Shown: piece after piece, positions 2,723-15,830 of the stretch
Layout of the letters: every line of letters begins with the position of its first letter
How positions within the stretch are numbered: the first letter of the stretch is position 1
Assembly (NCBI GenBank): GCA_025352065.1
Contig: JANXUC010000173.1
Location: 1 to 36,779, forward strand
DNA length: 36,779 bases
Direction of reading: 5' to 3'
Source of the DNA: Acidobacteriaceae bacterium
GTDB taxonomy: Bacteria > Acidobacteriota > Terriglobia > Terriglobales > Acidobacteriaceae
Position numbers and translations under genes: made by a program
Notes under the pieces: generated by a model
What the model saw: the letters and a program-made list of their open reading frames with translations, nothing else
What the model was told of the DNA's origin: nothing
The model's database searches: none

Positions 2723-3523
2723 CTACTTCTTGTTTTTGGCCGAATCTCCTATCCACTGGTCGACCCAGTCGTTGACTGTTTTGTACCAGAGCTGGCTGTT
2801 CTGCGGCTTTAATACCCAGTGACCTTCGTCGGGGAAATAAAGCATCTTCGAAGGCACGTTCATGCGCTGCAGGGTTGTGAAAAGCTGGAAGCCTTCGGAA
2901 ACGTCGAGGCGGTAGTCTTTCTGGCCGTGGACGACGAGCGTTGGAGTCTTGAAGTTCTTTGCAAAGAGATGAGGCGACCATTTTGTATACATCTCGCGAT
3001 TGGTGTAGGGAGTGCCTTTGAATTCCCAATCGTTGAACCACTGCTCTTCGGTGGTGCCCCAGGCGGAGTCGGTGTTGAACATGCCGTCGTGCGAGACGAG
3101 GCACTTGAAGCGATTGGTGTGACCGAGAATCCAGTTGATCATGTAACCGCCGTAGCTGGCGCCGAGGGCGCACTCGCGGTCTTTGTCGATAAACGGGAAA
3201 TGCTGTTCGGCGTAGTCGAGACCCTTCATGATGTCTTCGTAGGCGCGGCCACCCCAGTCGCCGTTGATGTCGTCGATAAACTTCTGTCCGTAGCCGGTCG
3301 AGCCGCGCGGGTTGACTTGCAGGACGACATAGCCGTTAGCAGCGAACAGTTCGGCGTTCCAGCGGTAGGACCAGTCGTCTCCCCAAGCGCCTTGCGGGCC
3401 GCCGTGGATTAGGAGCTTCACGGGGTATTTCTTCTGAGGATCGAAGTTGGGTGGCTTGATTAGGAAGCCTTGGACTTTAGCTTTTTCCGCGCCTTCGAAC
3501 CAGAAGGTTTCTAGCGGGGACAT
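2723..3523 (-). CDS. S9 family peptidase, C-terminal catalytic part (frameshifted gene)
   Basis: This 266-residue frame holds the alpha/beta-hydrolase domain of a prolyl-oligopeptidase/acylaminoacyl-peptidase (S9) enzyme. The nucleophile serine is in GASYGGYM, the aspartate in GQKDYRLD and the histidine in DEGHW, so the catalytic triad is intact. HGGPQGAWGDDWSYRWN supplies the usual oxyanion-side HGGP motif. The frame is open upstream of its first ATG to 3589 and there encodes ALTHLNDALLSQVE, which is typical propeller-to-hydrolase linker. The N-terminal propeller lies just upstream in another frame, ending at 3526. The two parts are therefore one gene broken by a frameshift, not an independent gene. 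The TAGAAATG junction could permit weak reinitiation. Confidence 0.75.
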   Translation of the reverse strand: MSPLETFWFEGAEKAKVQGFLIKPPNFDPQKKYPVKLLIHGGPQGAWGDDWSYRWNAELFAANGYVVLQVNPRGSTGYGQKFIDDINGDWGGRAYEDIMKGLDYAEQHFPFIDKDRECALGASYGGYMINWILGHTNRFKCLVSHDGMFNTDSAWGTTEEQWFNDWEFKGTPYTNREMYTKWSPHLFAKNFKTPTLVVHGQKDYRLDVSEGFQLFTTLQRMNVPSKMLYFPDEGHWVLKPQNSQLWYKTVNDWVDQWIGDSAKNKK

Positions 3524-3525
3524 TT

Positions 3526-4932
3526 CTACCTGGGAGAGGAGGGCATCGTTGAGGTGGGTGAGGGCTTTTCTATGAATGTGTCGCAGCGGTCAACCGTGTA
3601 GCCGTTCTGATCTCTGAACCCATGGTCAACGGGGCAATTGGATCTGCCGCTAAAGGTGGTTCCATATATCTCATTTGGGGACGTCAGCGACATTCGTGTA
3701 AATAACAGCCTGCCGTCATTTGGAACCACGCTTAGATCGTCGTTATATCCCCCAACCATCACCCTAGGCTTTTTGTCGTCGACCCCAATCATGTAAACCG
3801 GCGCTTCCCCGAAGTTGTCGCCGGAAAAAAGCACCGCTGGTGAATCCAAATTCCACGCAATCGTACCGATCCAACGATCAAAATCCTCCGTCAGGTTCTT
3901 TTTCTCTCCCGTCTTCCGGTTATACAGCATCAGACGAAATTGATCGCTCTCGTACCCCGGACGCTTCTGGGCGCGGTAGGCGATGTATTTGCCGTCGGAA
4001 GAATAGAGCGGGGTGGAATCGCTGGCGGGGTTGTCGGCGGTGATGTTTTTCGCCGTTTGCGAAGAGCTGACAGGCGAGGCGCCTGTCGCTACGTTGGGTG
4101 TCGTTGCGTTAATCGGGACAATCCAGAGGTCATTGTTGGTGCTGGTGGCTTCGACCTTGTCGTGGTTGGAGGTGTAGCAAAGCTCTTGTCCATCAGGCGC
4201 GATCACGTAGTTGTCCTGGCCGCCTAGACTGAAGACGGGGGAATCGTAGTCACCAGGTGTTAAATCGCGAGGCGTGTTATCCTCAGCAGCGGCATCGGCG
4301 GCAACGACGAAAAGATGGCTGCGCTTGCCTTCTTGATAAGCGTTCCAATGACGGTACAACAGCCGCGTAAAAACCTGCGCCTTTACTTTAGACTTGGCGA
4401 CTTCATCGAGTTTCTTTGCATTGCAGGCTGCGCCTTCCGCAGGCGATCCAACACATTCCGGAAAAACGCTCGACACAAAAACAATATTCTTGCCATCGGG
4501 CGACCAGATGGGGCCGTCGGCTTCAGTGGCGAGCGAGGTGAAGCGGTGGGTTGCCGTCACAGTAGCAGTGGCGCTATCGAAATCGGCGATCCAGACTTGC
4601 TGGCCGCCCCCTTTGGACGACAAAAACAGGAAGCGCTTGCCGTCGGGCGACCAGCGAGGGCGGTCGGCGTCCTGGTCGGCAATGATCTCGCGCGACTCTC
4701 CGCCCGCCGTAGGGACGATCCACACATGCGGCGTTTTCGTATTGGCTTCCAGGCTGACATCAACCACCGAGAAGGCCACCCATTTCCCGTCGGGCGAAGG
4801 CACCGGCTCGGCGACACGCTTGAGCTTCATCATGTCTTCAAACGTGAAGGGATGCTTGCTTTGGGCTTCGAGATGAACCGAAAGGACCACCGGGGCGACA
4901 AAAAGCAGAGCTAGCAGAATGAAACGGCGCAT
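3526..4932 (-). CDS. S9 family peptidase, N-terminal beta-propeller part (frameshifted gene)
   Basis: This 468-residue frame starts with a signal peptide (MRRFILLALLFVAPVVLSV...EAQ) and continues as a WD40/PD40-like beta-propeller with repeated SPDGK, WSPDG and LYSSDGK motifs. That is the substrate-gating half of a secreted S9 peptidase that cleaves peptides. GGAGG lies just before the ATG and supports the start. After NEIYGTT (about 3650) the frame runs through about 40 residues that do not look like the family and then stops. The catalytic half continues from 3589 in another frame. The disruption must lie between roughly 3530 and 3650; an indel, a small insertion or a sequencing error are all possible. 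The gene is divergent from the LolA-like pair. Confidence 0.75.
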   Translation of the reverse strand: MRRFILLALLFVAPVVLSVHLEAQSKHPFTFEDMMKLKRVAEPVPSPDGKWVAFSVVDVSLEANTKTPHVWIVPTAGGESREIIADQDADRPRWSPDGKRFLFLSSKGGGQQVWIADFDSATATVTATHRFTSLATEADGPIWSPDGKNIVFVSSVFPECVGSPAEGAACNAKKLDEVAKSKVKAQVFTRLLYRHWNAYQEGKRSHLFVVAADAAAEDNTPRDLTPGDYDSPVFSLGGQDNYVIAPDGQELCYTSNHDKVEATSTNNDLWIVPINATTPNVATGASPVSSSQTAKNITADNPASDSTPLYSSDGKYIAYRAQKRPGYESDQFRLMLYNRKTGEKKNLTEDFDRWIGTIAWNLDSPAVLFSGDNFGEAPVYMIGVDDKKPRVMVGGYNDDLSVVPNDGRLLFTRMSLTSPNEIYGTTFSGRSNCPVDHGFRDQNGYTVDRCDTFIEKPSPTSTMPSSPR

Positions 4933-5077: not shown

Positions 5078-5164
5078 TTGATCGGCATCGATAAACCTTT
5101 CCCGCGCAGACTGCATCTACAATACTTAAAGGGAAACCTTTTTCGTGTTAGGACTGCCTTTACT

Positions 5165-9728: not shown

Positions 9729-11780
9729 ATGCCGACAGAAAATGCCCCGAACGGAAATACCGGGACGAAGTTTCGACCCTTCGTCCCGGAGAACATGGAA
9801 ATGAAAGAGTTCACGCTCCGAGCCGTCCTCCTGGGCCTCTTTATGTGCGTGATTCTAGGTGCGGCCAACGCCTACTTGGGGCTCCGGGCAGGTATTACGA
9901 TCGCGGCCACCTATCCGGCAGCGGTTATTTCGATGGCGGTGCTTCGGGCCTGGAAAGGTACGTTGTTGGAAGAAAACATTGCCCGCACCGCTGGCTCGAT
10001 CGGCGAATCTGTGGCAGCGGGCGCGATCTTCACAATTCCTGCATTTCTCATTGCGAAAGCATGGCCTTCGTTCCGGCCCGCCGACGCGTACTGGAAGGCC
10101 ACTGCCCTAATGACTGTCGGCAGTATTCTTGGGGTTCTCTTTGTCTCGCTCGTGCGACGAGTCATGGTGGAAGACCCGGAGCTTCCTTTTCCAGAGTCGG
10201 TGGCGGCCTCCGAAATCCACAAGGCGGGCCAGCGTGGAGCGGAAGCGGCGAAATATCTTTTTTGGAACATAGGCGTCGGCGGCCTAGTTTTCATGTTGGG
10301 CCGTTTCGGCTTGTTCGCGGCCGATCAAGACTTCCACTTTAATGTCGGGAATTTGGGCCGGAGTCAGGTTCGCCTAGGGGCGGTCGGCAGCGACCACATC
10401 GTGGGCGCGGGCGGGATGAGCATGGTCGCAGCACCTAGCGTGAGTCCGGCTTATCTGGGAGTCGGCTATATCATTGGGTTGCGGCTGGCGGCTCTCCAGT
10501 TCGCGGGAGGCGTTCTGGCGTGGGGGCTAATGGTTCCGTTGCTCATGTTTTTCTTAGGCCCACAGCTTCGGGTGTATTTACCCGCCGATACCCCTGAGAA
10601 CTGGGCCGGAATGGCAGCAGCCGTTTGGCGCTATGTTGTGCGCCCAATCGCCGTAGGCGGCATGCTTGTCGGTGCCGCATATACTTTGTTCAAGATGCGG
10701 AATAGCCTGACGGTCGGACTCAAGAAAGCGTTCGCAGATCTGTGGCAGACTCCGGAACAGCAGGCTGGATTAGCCCGCACCGAACGCTACATGAGTTCGA
10801 AGACGGTCTTCGGATTGATTTTCCTGATGTTCATCGCTATGTGCTTTCTTTACGTGCGTCTGTCCGGATTGCTTTGGCCAGCAATCTTGGCTGCCGTCGT
10901 CATGATCATTGTTGGCTTCTTCTTCTCGACCGTCTCCGGAAGCCTGGTAGGCATGATTGGATCTTCCAACAATCCGATTTCCGGGTTAACACTCTCGACG
11001 TTGATTATCGCGGCATTGTTGATGGTGTCTCTGGGCGTTTCAGGAATCTCGGGAGTAACGGCGGTGTTGGGCGTGGCCGCGGTAGTTTGCGTTTCCGCAG
11101 CTGTCGCGGGCGAGTTGCTGCAGGACTTTAAAGTCGGCTACATCCTCGGTGGTACTCCACGAACCATTCAGATTGTGGAACTTATCGCAGTTGTCGTTGC
11201 CAGCCTAGTCATGTACTTCCCTCTTATGCTTTTGCATGAGGCGAACATCAAAGCAGGCGGCATCGGCTTCGGAGATCGGCAACTTCCAGCTCCGCAGGCC
11301 GGACTCATGGCGACACTTGCGCTGGGCATTGTAGGCGGCGATATGCCTTGGCCGCTGGTGGTTGTCGGCATTTTCATGGGCGTGGCGATGATCATGCTCC
11401 AGGTAAAAAGCCCTATGCTTGTAGCCGTCGGGATGTATTTGCCTTTTGAAACCACAGCCGCGATCTTCCTGGGCGGCGTGTTTCGTTCGTTGGGGGATTG
11501 GCTGGCCAAACGCCGCGGATACAATTCCGCTCAGATGGCGCGGGTTGAGAACGCCGGCGTGCTGACTTCTTCGGGCTTGATCGCTGGGGAGGCTGTACTC
11601 GGCTTGCTCTGGGCAGGACTGCAGTTTGCCCCCGCATGGGCACGGCCGCAGATTTTCGCTAACCCATCTTATTTTTTCGGATTGGTCGTGATGGTCGGGT
11701 TGGCGGCGTTGATGATTCGCCTGCCGCTTTCGAGTGCGGGCAGCCCGGATGAACCCGCTCCACCGACTGCGATGATGTAA
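9729..11780 (+). CDS. OPT family oligopeptide transporter
   Basis: A 683-residue polytopic membrane protein of the OPT family, beginning with a short soluble segment containing FRPFVPENMEMKEFTLRAVLLG and then about 14-16 hydrophobic segments. Typical motifs are NAYLGLRAGITIAATYPAAV near the N-terminus, ENIARTAGSIGESVAAGAIFT, and VSGSLVGMIGSSNNPISG in the middle. Bacterial OPT proteins take up oligopeptides or metal chelates, driven by protons; the substrate cannot be read from sequence. GAGGA lies before the ATG at 9729. It is followed by a hairpin repeat and then yggS. With the POT transporter and the peptidases in this window it suggests peptide use. Confidence 0.9.
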   Translation: MPTENAPNGNTGTKFRPFVPENMEMKEFTLRAVLLGLFMCVILGAANAYLGLRAGITIAATYPAAVISMAVLRAWKGTLLEENIARTAGSIGESVAAGAIFTIPAFLIAKAWPSFRPADAYWKATALMTVGSILGVLFVSLVRRVMVEDPELPFPESVAASEIHKAGQRGAEAAKYLFWNIGVGGLVFMLGRFGLFAADQDFHFNVGNLGRSQVRLGAVGSDHIVGAGGMSMVAAPSVSPAYLGVGYIIGLRLAALQFAGGVLAWGLMVPLLMFFLGPQLRVYLPADTPENWAGMAAAVWRYVVRPIAVGGMLVGAAYTLFKMRNSLTVGLKKAFADLWQTPEQQAGLARTERYMSSKTVFGLIFLMFIAMCFLYVRLSGLLWPAILAAVVMIIVGFFFSTVSGSLVGMIGSSNNPISGLTLSTLIIAALLMVSLGVSGISGVTAVLGVAAVVCVSAAVAGELLQDFKVGYILGGTPRTIQIVELIAVVVASLVMYFPLMLLHEANIKAGGIGFGDRQLPAPQAGLMATLALGIVGGDMPWPLVVVGIFMGVAMIMLQVKSPMLVAVGMYLPFETTAAIFLGGVFRSLGDWLAKRRGYNSAQMARVENAGVLTSSGLIAGEAVLGLLWAGLQFAPAWARPQIFANPSYFFGLVVMVGLAALMIRLPLSSAGSPDEPAPPTAMM

Positions 11781-11785
11781 TCTTG

Positions 11786-11849
11786 CACCACGGAGACACT
11801 CCGGCACGGAGAAATCCTAATTGCTCCGCGTTTGGCTATCTCCGTGGTT
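11786..11849 (+). terminator. Hairpin made of CACGGAG-type repeat, followed by T-rich tract
   Basis: ACCACGGAGA (11787-11796) pairs perfectly with TCTCCGTGGT (11839-11848), and CGGAG (11807-11811) pairs with CTCCG (11824-11828). The bases after it are T-rich (TTTTCTTTTGCCTTTTT), so it could end the OPT transcript. The left arm matches a second copy at 30660-30687 at 25 of 28 bases, so this is also a dispersed repeat. It lies only 21 bases before the yggS start. Confidence 0.55.
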
Positions 11850-11869
11850 TTCTTTTGCCTTTTTCAGTT

Positions 11870-12583
11870 ATGTCGATTGCGGAAAATGTTGATGATATCC
11901 GGAAACGAATTGCCGCAGTGGCTGGCCGCGCTGGACGAAGTGCTGACGAAATCGTCCTGATGGGTGTCAGTAAGACATTTCCAGTGGAGTCAATTCGTGA
12001 AGCCTACGCTGCTGGGATTCGCGTGTTTGGCGAGAACCGGGTGCAGGAGTTTTCGGAAAAATCGAACGCGTTATCATCCCGAAGCTCTGACCGACCTGAT
12101 GCTGCATGGCATTTGATTGGACATCTGCAATCCAATAAGGCCGCCAAGGCCGCTGAGCTTTTTCATTCAGTCGATTCGGTGGACTCTTTGAGGCTTGCCG
12201 AGCGATTGGATACTGCAGCGGCGGGTTTGAACAAGAGGCTGGGCGTGCTAATTGAGATCAATATTGGAGGTGAAGCCGCGAAGAGTGGGCTCGCTCCCGA
12301 ATCAATTGAACTGGAACAGTTGCTGCAAGCCGCGCCCCGGTTCGAGCATATCCAGATTCATGGGCTGATGACGATTCCTCCATTCGACGAAAACCCGGAA
12401 GAGACTCGACCGTATTTTCGTAAGCTACGCGAGTTGCGCGATGCTGTCCGGAATCGAAGACTTCCGAGCATGGATTTGGATGTACTTTCAATGGGCATGT
12501 CCCATGATTTCGAGATTGCCATAGAAGAGGGGTCGACCTGCGTGCGCGTGGGCACGAGGATTTTCGGTAGAAGGACAAATTGA
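11870..12583 (+). CDS. yggS: YggS family pyridoxal phosphate homeostasis protein
   Basis: A 237-residue PLP-binding protein of the YggS/PROSC family, which buffers PLP and affects amino- and keto-acid balance in the cytoplasm. The PLP lysine is in MGVSKTFPVE. Other family motifs are GENRVQEF, WHLIGHLQSNKA, VDSVDS, INIGGEAAKSG, GLMTIPP and LSMGMSHDFEIAIEEGS, ending in VRVGTRIFG. The ATG at 11870 (MSIAENVDDIRKRI) was chosen because the frame upstream runs through the hairpin repeat. It heads a unit with a small membrane protein and DUF167/YggU, matching the yggS-yggT-yggU order of other bacteria. Confidence 0.93.
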   Translation: MSIAENVDDIRKRIAAVAGRAGRSADEIVLMGVSKTFPVESIREAYAAGIRVFGENRVQEFSEKSNALSSRSSDRPDAAWHLIGHLQSNKAAKAAELFHSVDSVDSLRLAERLDTAAAGLNKRLGVLIEINIGGEAAKSGLAPESIELEQLLQAAPRFEHIQIHGLMTIPPFDENPEETRPYFRKLRELRDAVRNRRLPSMDLDVLSMGMSHDFEIAIEEGSTCVRVGTRIFGRRTN

Positions 12584-12585
12584 AA

Positions 12586-12928
12586 ATGAAATATGTGGAC
12601 TACTTTTTCGCTTCAACGATCTTGATGGTCGCCGTGCTTTTCATGCTCGTAACTGAAATTTCGCATCCGCGCGGCGCGATTTTGGACGTTCCATTTCTCT
12701 GGCTGCTCGTTGCCATGCTCAATTTTCTGCGACTTCGCAATGAGTACCGGCTCGTAAGTGGCTTGAAAAATTACATGCATTGGAACAAATCTGATAGGCC
12801 TGACCCTAGAGATTGTGCGTCTAAAGTTGTTCGGGAGTTCTGTCCTGCAAAGCTGGGGTCCGTACGCTGTCATCGTAACAGTTGCGATTTTGGGTGAGAC
12901 TATCTTTTCGATAAGACAGAAATCGTGA
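12586..12928 (+). pseudogene. Small membrane protein gene with one-base frameshift in an A5 run
   Basis: The ATG at 12586 opens a frame with two hydrophobic segments (FFASTILMVAVLFMLV and VPFLWLLVAMLNFL). After SGLK the frame turns into non-hydrophobic sequence and stops at 12897. Removing one A from the run at 12766-12770 restores a continuous 113-residue protein: SGLK-ITCIGTNLIGLTLEIV... to AVIVTVAILGETIFSIRQKS, adding further membrane segments. Its TGA (12926-12928) then overlaps the GTG of the next gene as GTGA, the usual sign of translational coupling. This supports the restored frame. It is either a sequencing error or a recent mutation. It occupies the yggT position but does not look like YggT. 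Confidence 0.7.
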
Positions 12929-13224
12929 TTCCGATTCACGACACACCGTTAGGAGCGACCTTTGCCATCAAGGTTCATCCCCGCGCCAAGAGAAATGCCA
13001 TCACAGGCGAACTTGGGGACACGCTGAAAGTTGCCCTGACCGCGCCGCCACTCGACGGACGTGCCAACGAGGGCTGCATTGAATTCTTTGCAAAAACTTT
13101 GAATGTATCCCGCGCGTCCGTTAGTATTGCGGCGGGCCAGAGCAGCCGTAACAAAGTGATTCGTGTGGCCGGACTGTCGTCCCAGGAAGTGCGGACGCGG
13201 TTGGAAGCTCTCCGTCCGGAATAG
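12925..13224 (+). CDS. yggU: DUF167 (YggU) family protein
   Basis: A 99-residue protein of the DUF167/YggU family: FAIKVHPRAKRNAITG, the diagnostic TAPPLDGRANEGCIEFFAK, then GQSSRNKVIRVAGLS. Its biochemical role is unknown; the fold is a small alpha/beta domain. The GTG start at 12925 overlaps the restored stop of the membrane protein gene by GTGA, so translation is probably coupled. Its own stop codon lies inside a dispersed palindromic repeat (13223-13259). Confidence 0.88.
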   Translation: MIPIHDTPLGATFAIKVHPRAKRNAITGELGDTLKVALTAPPLDGRANEGCIEFFAKTLNVSRASVSIAAGQSSRNKVIRVAGLSSQEVRTRLEALRPE

Positions 13225-13259
13225 CAGATTCCTCAGGGCTGAAGCCCTTCGGAATGACA
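13223..13259. repeat. Dispersed repeat AGCAGATTCCTC...CGGAATGACA, copy 1
   Basis: A 37-base element with ends AGCAGATTCCTC and TTCGGAATGACA and an internal hairpin AGGGCTGAAGCCCT. A second copy lies at 29715-29750 in reverse orientation, sharing both ends but with an unrelated middle. It starts within the stop codon of the DUF167 gene. Confidence 0.65.
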
Positions 13260-13328
13260 ATTGAGTAAAGAGTTTGGATAGTTCAAAAAGTCGCGCCTGA
13301 GGTTGGGACAAGACTTCAAAGGATTTCC

Positions 13329-14600
13329 GTGAATATTTCCGAACAATGGCATGAGGTACGGACCGGGTTCGAGCGTCCGTTCTGGGTTGCGAACATCACC
13401 GAGTTGTTCGAGCGGCTCTCTTACTACGCCGCCTTTGCTTCCCTGGCCCGCTATCTGCATGAGACGCTGAATTTTGATATTGAGAAAGCGGCCAGCTTGG
13501 CTGGGCTGTTTGGCGGGCTGGTGTGGTTCCTGGCAGCCTTTGGTGGCACGCTCGCAGACCGGCTCGGCTTTCGACGCGCTCTTTCGCTGGCGTATTTCAT
13601 TCTTAGTTTGTCGTATTTCGTGCTCGGCTCGCTAAAGTCGACGTGGATGGCTCCAGTTCGCAGTGCCGTACCACTGACCCTGTTGGTGACGGTCGTACTC
13701 ATGCTTCCGGCACTCGGGATTGCGTTGGTCAAGCCGAGCATCGTCGGCACTACGGCGCGTGCCTCAAAGGAGAGTGCGCGCTCGATTGGCTATTCCATTT
13801 ACTACACGCTGGTGAACATCGGCGGCGCTTTGGGGCCTTTGGTGGCTTCGTGGGTGCATCAACATTTGGCCGTGGAAAAAGTTTTTCTGGTTGCAGCATT
13901 CAGCGTGTTTTTGATGTTCTTTGCGGTCCTGTTGTTCTTCAAAGAACCGCGCCGCGCGGGTGAAATTCAGGTTGTGAGCCTGGCACAATCCGCACAAAAT
14001 TTCTGGACCGTGGTCACCAACCCACGCTTCATGCTGTTTCTTCTGATCTTTTCCGGCTACTGGATTGTCTACTGGCAGATGTTCATCACGCTGCCGATCT
14101 TCGTGCACAACTACATCAGTTCCACGGCCGACACCGAACTGCTGCTCGTGACTGGACCACTGGTGGTCATCTCGCTCCAACTGGTAGTCAGTTACCTGAC
14201 ACAGAAATTGCCCGCCTTTACTGCGATTATTTTGGGGACACTCATTTCCGGCCTTGCGTGGGTGTTGCTGATTATCGCTCCATCGGTTCCCATGGTTGTT
14301 GCCACGCTCGTCGTGGTTGCGCTTGGCGAAATCATGCAAACCCCGCGCTACTACGAATATGTTTCGCGCCTTGCACCGTCAGGGCAGCAGGGTACCTATA
14401 TGGGCTTTGCGTTCATGCCGCTCGGCATTGGCGCGTTCGTTAGCGGATGGTTTGGCGGCAAGCTGATGCATCATTTTGGAGAAGTTACACACCAGCCCGA
14501 GCGCGTCTGGTGGGCAATTACGGGGGTGGGAGTGGCAACGGCTGCCTTGCTTTGGGTGTACGACAAGACCATTCGAAAGACAGTGGCTTCGAACGTATGA
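13329..14600 (+). CDS. POT/PTR2-type proton-dependent peptide transporter
   Basis: A 423-residue major-facilitator protein with about 12 hydrophobic segments. The N-terminal NITELFERLSYYAAF matches the ExxER-type motif of proton-coupled oligopeptide transporters, where these residues couple proton and peptide. GLFGGLVWFLAAFGGTLADRLGFRRAL is the usual loop 2-3 region with the D-R-x-G-x-R/K signature. The GTG at 13329 is preceded by AAAGGA at 5 bases, so GTG is preferred. It is shorter than classical POT proteins (450-500). The M24 peptidase follows on the same strand, consistent with uptake then cleavage of small peptides. The substrate is inferred. Confidence 0.82.
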   Translation: MNISEQWHEVRTGFERPFWVANITELFERLSYYAAFASLARYLHETLNFDIEKAASLAGLFGGLVWFLAAFGGTLADRLGFRRALSLAYFILSLSYFVLGSLKSTWMAPVRSAVPLTLLVTVVLMLPALGIALVKPSIVGTTARASKESARSIGYSIYYTLVNIGGALGPLVASWVHQHLAVEKVFLVAAFSVFLMFFAVLLFFKEPRRAGEIQVVSLAQSAQNFWTVVTNPRFMLFLLIFSGYWIVYWQMFITLPIFVHNYISSTADTELLLVTGPLVVISLQLVVSYLTQKLPAFTAIILGTLISGLAWVLLIIAPSVPMVVATLVVVALGEIMQTPRYYEYVSRLAPSGQQGTYMGFAFMPLGIGAFVSGWFGGKLMHHFGEVTHQPERVWWAITGVGVATAALLWVYDKTIRKTVASNV

Positions 14601-14663
14601 GGCGCTGAGTTCTGTTTGCATTCACGCAAATCTCAAACCCTCCGTTACAATGAAGAATTGCTT

Positions 14664-15830
14664 ATGAACCTGGCCGCTATCCAGTCCGCGCTACGCGAGC
14701 AAGGCTTTGACGCCTGGCTCTTCGTCGATCATCATCATCGCGATCCAATCTCTTATAGAGTTCTTGGCTTGCCTACGAGCATGATGGTTACTCGGCGATG
14801 GTTCTACCTGATCCCCGCGCAAGGTGAACCTTCTAAGCTGGTGCACAAAATTGAAGCGGGGCATCTTGATTCCCTGCCGGGATCGAAGCGGCAATACGCC
14901 GCGTGGCAGGAATTGGAAGAAAATCTAAAGGCGATGCTGGCACCCTACAAAACGGTTGCCATGCAGTATTCGCCGAACAATCGCGTATTTGTGATTTCAC
15001 TGGTCGACGGCGGGACGACCGAGCTGATTCGCAGTTTTGGAACAACAATCGTCAGCTCGGGCGATCTGGTTGCACAATTTGAAGCCACCTTGACCGACGA
15101 CCAGATTCGTAGCCATTTTGAAGCGCGCGATGGCGTGGACCGTGTGACGGCGGCAGCCTTTCAGGAAATTGGACACCGGGTCCGCAACGGCGGCACGCAC
15201 GAATTTGAAATGCAGCAGTGGATCATGGAAGCTTTTACTCGCGAAGGCTTGAAGACAGAAGACCCGCCGATTGTTGGCGTGAATGCGCATAGCGGCGACC
15301 CGCACTACGAGCCTCGTTCCGACCGCTCTGCTCCTATTCGCGAAGGCGATTGGGTACTGCTCGATATCTGGGCCAAGATGAACAAGCCAGACTCCGTTTA
15401 CTACGACATCACTTGGACGGGGTTTGTTGGCCAGTCCCCGTCCGACAAGCAGCGTGAGGTTTTTAAAGTCGTAACCGGGGCGCGCGACGCTGGAGCGGAG
15501 AAAGTCATTTCATCCGTTGCGGCGGGCAAGCAGCTTTCAGGATGGGAAGTCGACCGAGCGACGCGCGACCACATCAAGAACGCAGGCTTTGGCGAATATT
15601 TTATTCACCGTACGGGCCACTCGATTGCCACTGATATTCACGCAAACGGCGCTAACATGGACGATCTGGAAGTCCACGATGTACGGCGAATTCTGCCGAA
15701 CTCCTGCTTCTCGATCGAGCCAGGCGTTTACCTGCCGGAGTTTGGCATTCGTAGCGAGATTAACGTGCTGGTCCACAAAGGGTCGGCGGAAGTTACGGGA
15801 AGAATTCAACGCGATATTGTTTTGATTTAG
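14664..15830 (+). CDS. M24 family metallopeptidase (Xaa-Pro peptidase-like)
   Basis: A 388-residue protein with an N-terminal creatinase-like domain and a C-terminal pita-bread metallopeptidase domain. The five metal ligands are all present: D234 (LLDIWAK), D248 (YYDITW), H319 (HRTGHSI), E352 (SIEPGVY) and E365 (RSEINV). It likely removes N-terminal residues from Xaa-Pro or similar peptides with a dinuclear metal centre, in the cytoplasm, since no signal peptide is seen. The ATG at 14664 (MNLAAIQSALREQGFDAW) fits the family start; the frame upstream is not conserved-looking. It lies 63 bases after the POT transporter gene. Confidence 0.9.
   Translation: MNLAAIQSALREQGFDAWLFVDHHHRDPISYRVLGLPTSMMVTRRWFYLIPAQGEPSKLVHKIEAGHLDSLPGSKRQYAAWQELEENLKAMLAPYKTVAMQYSPNNRVFVISLVDGGTTELIRSFGTTIVSSGDLVAQFEATLTDDQIRSHFEARDGVDRVTAAAFQEIGHRVRNGGTHEFEMQQWIMEAFTREGLKTEDPPIVGVNAHSGDPHYEPRSDRSAPIREGDWVLLDIWAKMNKPDSVYYDITWTGFVGQSPSDKQREVFKVVTGARDAGAEKVISSVAAGKQLSGWEVDRATRDHIKNAGFGEYFIHRTGHSIATDIHANGANMDDLEVHDVRRILPNSCFSIEPGVYLPEFGIRSEINVLVHKGSAEVTGRIQRDIVLI

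Follow-up and report, generated by a model that had tools for sequence, protein, structure and literature searches.

An accessory gene for a predicted small membrane protein between yggS and yggU in part of the Acidobacteriaceae, frame-broken in one assembly

The yggS operon is very widespread and poorly understood. In one member of the Acidobacteriaceae (assembly GCA_025352065.1, contig JANXUC010000173.1, positions 1-36,779 of the forward strand; this whole 36,779-nt stretch is called the window in what follows) a reading frame between yggS and yggU loses its register part of the way along. Is there a gene here, what interrupted it, and how closely does it belong with its two neighbors? Our overall reading, to which we assign a probability of roughly three in four, is that the frame, called gene X below, is an accessory small membrane gene of the yggS-yggU operon, carrying a one-base frame break that is either recent or mis-assembled. 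Annotating the frame as written yields a false protein of 103-105 residues and misses an unnamed membrane family.

The frame break and an intact homologue

All genes of the locus lie on the plus strand. Upstream is an OPT oligopeptide transporter gene (9729..11780; Pfam PF03169, E 2.9e-86), followed by yggS of the PLP-binding YggS/PROSC family (11870..12583; PF01168, with TIGR00044 at 11873-12574), whose start was picked from the sequence as the ATG at 11870. Gene X starts at ATG 12586, 2 nt after the yggS stop (TGA 12581-12583), and AAGGA stands at 12571-12575, 10 nt 5′ of this ATG. Downstream are yggU (DUF167; 12925..13224; PF02594, E 7.9e-25), an MFS transporter gene with POT/PTR2 similarity (13329..14600; PF07690, E 2e-36; PF00854, E 3.1e-7) and an M24 metallopeptidase gene (14616..15830; PF00557), the last of these also found downstream in many relatives. 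The cluster from OPT through yggS, X, yggU and the POT-like MFS gene to the M24 peptidase (9729-15830) is kept together in many relatives, and it suggests a theme of peptide uptake and cleavage around yggS.

Codons 1-61 of X (12586..12768) match intact homologues in the frame as written. From a run of five A's at 12766-12770 this frame is out of register, and it is closed by a TGA at 12895-12897, giving 105 amino acids from TTG 12580 or 103 from ATG 12586. The shifted frame is open from 12770 to a TGA at 12926-12928, which lies within a GTGA shared with the yggU start (GTG 12925), and translation across the break gives 113 residues. Inspection of the sequence bore out the first-pass annotation on the exact position of the run, on the 113-residue product of a frame shift there, and on its end at the overlap with yggU.

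Scanning the through-reading against 84,980 species genomes yielded one confirmed relative, L003, on a 4.2-kb contig (PMBA01000260.1) of an Acidobacteriaceae metagenome-assembled genome. Its X is one open frame that aligns with that of the window without a gap (68/113 identical, 60%, E 1e-49), its gene order is the same (yggS-X-yggU-MFS) and it has no A run at the point of the break. The lack of any homologue of the restored tail had been named beforehand as grounds for abandoning the proposal; the 52-residue tail alone matches L003 (27/52 identical, 52%, E 2e-20), whereas the tail read without the shift gives no alignment at E≤100. Because L003 is a single open frame, gap-free across 113 residues, the break is more than chance: the through-reading is a genuine protein family, and it is confirmed that X is frame-broken at the A run, its frame being interrupted where those of homologues are open, as in a pseudogene.

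Mutation, assembly error or programmed shift

Relaxed constraint past the break, the other mark of a pseudogene, was not seen. Beyond this point, comparison of the window with L003 and with a further relative, L025, gave pN/pS values of 0.33 and 0.31, and comparison of these two intact relatives with each other gave 0.35. Few codons are compared (segments of 60 and 52), and synonymous change in the tail has reached saturation (pS 0.79-0.93), which leaves room for a moderately old break. Because the tail is constrained like that of the intact pair, the break would have arisen either very recently, by mutation of a gene that can be dispensed with, or in the assembly. We consider these two about equally probable, each a little short of even odds.

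If the assembly or sequencing is at fault, the gene is intact in the organism and the extra A is an error of homopolymer length. The undiminished constraint on the tail fits this account, as do the fragmentation of the genome into 183 contigs and a second split gene in the window. The latter encodes an S9 prolyl-oligopeptidase-type protein (2723-4932, minus strand) and is divided into two ORFs, a PD40 part and a Peptidase_S9 part, with its frame change also at a short A run; the gene is unbroken in the relatives L104 and L105, and a 769-residue open frame is found in a relative. What speaks against such a fault is that breaks seem uncommon elsewhere in the genome. A first screen for frame breaks flagged 38/112, but antisense shadow ORFs in the reference set distorted it, and it was replaced by one that kept the best-scoring non-overlapping gene place. 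The redone screen flagged 13/113 gene places, of which 7/23 were in the window, X among them, and 6/90 came from another 80 stretches of this genome; it is a coarse screen that missed the S9 break, found separately. Five of the six places outside the window, all but L183, were inspected: L154 and L168 are apparently natural ends, and L164 and L207, which lack a Pfam match, may be shadows. The only clear break on inspection was L176 (G000:C29, 2562-3714), an S8 subtilase gene that is apparently broken at several places.

The account of a real and very recent loss-of-function mutation, by slippage in the A run of a dispensable gene, draws on the distribution of X: because X is absent from many relatives, its loss is tolerated. 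The end of the operon may also decay easily, since yggU is frame-broken in three other X carriers (G340, locus L025; G276, L032; G226, L036), unless those breaks are errors too. Against it, the tail shows no relaxation so far. In another locus, L029, yggU is interrupted by unknown bases.

A third explanation, that a programmed frameshift or transcript slippage is part of the normal expression of X, is very improbable. The break does fall within an A run and the downstream frame is constrained, but the shift would have to be +1, and five A's are a short run for slippage. Moreover, among the profile matches only that of the window is split across two reading frames, and the intact L003 has no frame change at that point; with both the run and the split missing from intact relatives, such a shift is unlikely.

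An accessory gene of the yggS-yggU junction

The first-pass annotation suggested X as an unnamed partner of YggS and YggU and asked whether it always lies between their genes. A two-row profile was searched against 398 genomes of the family and matched 18, two of which (G352 and G404) were short, partial and chance-like (E 0.006-0.0096); they were absent from the second search and were dropped. That search, with a 17-row profile at E≤0.001 against the same 398 genomes, found X relatives in 31, counting the window's own. The yggS, yggU, OPT, MFS and M24 genes were placed by tblastn in the fetched surroundings of the matches. X lies between yggS and yggU in 20 of the 31 genomes, that of the window included (G000, G012, G020, G029, G061, G146, G175, G184, G226, G268, G276, G290, G309, G315, G317, G335, G340, G345, G357 and G402), and the overlap of its stop with the yggU start recurs in relatives. 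In three more it stands beside one of the two genes: yggS-X-MFS in G387, where yggU was not found, OPT-X-yggS in G201 and yggU-X-MFS in G136. For the remaining eight (G369, G135, G411, G318, G254, G210, G142 and G106) neither yggS nor yggU was found in the fetched stretch, the contig being short on one side of the match in G135 and G210.

The junction was also approached from its flanking genes. Within the class, yggS and yggU were mapped in 80 genomes (58 from the family), a set chosen to contain the X carriers, and the distance between the two profile matches was recounted in 29 family genomes (those among G000-G034 in which the two genes share a contig). In 22/29 the gap is 35-172 nt, so that the genes are directly adjacent with no room for a gene the size of X; in 4/29 X is present (gaps of 376-473 nt) and in 3/29 there is other content (505, 1604 and 3284 nt). 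Such content takes several forms: G021 (L087) has an unrelated 157-residue protein with no Pfam match, G004 (L089) a gene block encoded on the other strand, and G028 other DNA.

On a 39-row yggS tree, 9 changes account for where X is present, whereas shuffled labels need 13.2 on average (8/500 shuffles were as low); with 22 inner branches left open, 9 is a rough number. Two labels are weak: L106 was scored as empty with a contig that ends just past yggS, and L103 as having none on a stretch without yggU. Because fewer changes are needed than with shuffled labels, X has in part been passed on by descent, with more than one gain or loss along the way. One well-supported pair, G027 (empty) and G317 (with X), places a gain or loss within a single genus.

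X is, then, an accessory gene that some Acidobacteriaceae carry in their yggS-yggU operon. An obligate partnership with YggS and YggU is not indicated, because only 20 of the 31 genomes with a match have it between both genes and 22 of 29 junctions are empty, and any functional tie is weakened further because eight of the 31 matches lie away from both genes in the fetched stretch. The first-pass annotation described the break correctly and rightly set X apart from YggT (below); on the partnership it went beyond the evidence. We infer that X is a dispensable auxiliary membrane partner near the products of its operon, and not part of the core of YggS/YggU function. Coupled translation of X with yggS and yggU is probable, because it starts 2 nt past the yggS stop and its own stop overlaps the yggU start. 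In G268 (L027) three tandem copies of clearly different subtypes, at oriented positions 5111, 5428 and 5796, lie between yggS and yggU.

Relation to YggT, predicted structure and other operon junctions

In other bacteria YggT is found at this place. PMC6396713 describes it as an integral membrane protein of the osmotic shock response, encoded in a yggS-proH-yggT-yggU operon, and PMC10599003, citing Ito 2009, links it to osmotic adaptation. X resembles YggT/YlmG (PF02325) in being a small protein, putatively integral to the membrane, whose gene directly follows yggS and precedes or lies near yggU/DUF167. It differs in its sequence: PF02325 matched neither the through-reading nor any of 17 X relatives (E≤1), which rules out membership of the YggT family by profile and agrees with the initial impression that the product does not look like YggT. 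Nor did PF02325 match anywhere in the window's whole genome.

YggT was found in 1/80 genomes of the window's class and in 76/199 genomes drawn across the phylum, all 76 of these lying outside that class. In three of five YggT loci examined yggS is just upstream of YggT; the other two gave no match to the window's yggS, and yggU was not found in any of the five 3.2-kb loci. X is directly downstream of yggS in 20 genomes. The idea that X occupies the place of YggT is upheld to this extent: X sits in a slot held by YggT elsewhere in the phylum, and most of the family genomes measured have neither.

It is tempting to suppose that, after the loss of YggT from this lineage, X took over its membrane task in ion or osmotic balance. 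The shared slot after yggS, as seen in three of the five loci, and the rarity of YggT in the class compared with the phylum lend some color to this. However, we find it quite doubtful, given that X does not match PF02325, that the slot holds neither gene in most family genomes measured and that relatives of X also occur in other operons. Were the family truly a replacement for lost YggT, the Acidobacteriaceae yggS operon would be a natural test of what its membrane member is for; if X is only accessory, as we prefer, it adds one modest entry to the list of uncharacterized small membrane proteins.

No Pfam or NCBIfam model scored above its cut-off for X or its relatives. For the closest members the best values for a named family were weak (Pfam E 0.034, NCBIfam E 0.0092, PDB sequence E 0.96), and distant relatives reached NF007868 at E 0.00056 (18.5 bits, cut-off 943) and NF047765, the LIC_13387 family, at E 0.00083 (19 bits, cut-off 33), so that both fall short. 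The similarity of some distant members to the LIC_13387 family is weak and partial, and only 1 of 17 closer members matched it at E≤1 (best 0.28). Among the papers listed by a literature search, nothing on this gene was found.

AlphaFold2 was run on a 26-row alignment of X with the L003 protein first. The model has four helices of membrane length (predicted at 2-26, 35-52, 58-82 and 84-112), with a mean pLDDT of 84.1 and a pTM of 0.73, and on this prediction X would be a small inner-membrane protein of about 105-135 residues forming a four-helix bundle. Without the shift, the product of the window's frame would retain helices 1-2 and lose helices 3-4. In the alignment D5, N46 and R49 are fully conserved, and A9, E104 and S108 almost fully. 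Foldseek gave 0/112 matches in PDB at E≤0.001 for the L003 model. By VIA the best Z was 12.8, in the range usual for helical bundles and with unrelated bundles mixed in the list; the chains listed (Fc epsilon RI beta, KATP SUR, VKOR, TARP) were taken to reflect a common helical bundle and not a specific fold.

Relatives of X also occur at junctions of other operons. The one in G369 (L086:6606-7037, minus strand) is embedded in the complex I operon, flanked by NuoJ (PF00499) and NuoK (PF00420), with NuoH, NuoL and NuoN-type genes around it. In three genomes of one genus (G118, G254 and G318; loci L079, L080 and L124, the last at L124:3976-4293) looser relatives lie between undecaprenyl diphosphate synthase (uppS) and cytidylyltransferase (cdsA-type) genes. 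All 7 of the 7 extra class-level loci fetched have their X relatives away from yggS and yggU. The nuo and uppS/cdsA placements speak against a function of X that is bound only to YggS and YggU.

A broader proposal would place X in an undescribed Acidobacteriota family of small four-helix membrane proteins that nest at junctions of conserved operons (20 genomes at yggS/yggU, one at nuoJ/nuoK and three at uppS/cdsA). At yggS/yggU its members would replace the lost YggT without being homologous to it, assisting adjacent membrane proteins or envelope synthesis, and the tandem copies of G268 would be diverging in role. We consider this whole unlikely. Unnamed four-helix Acidobacteriota proteins (L076, L083 and L125; L079, L080 and L124) are picked up by the X profile and share with X their length, an N-terminal MK..D and an N..R after helix 2, whereas their identity is ~20% and they are not beside yggS or yggU. 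A further looser relative lies near an amino acid permease gene in G438, and others are near unremarkable genes.
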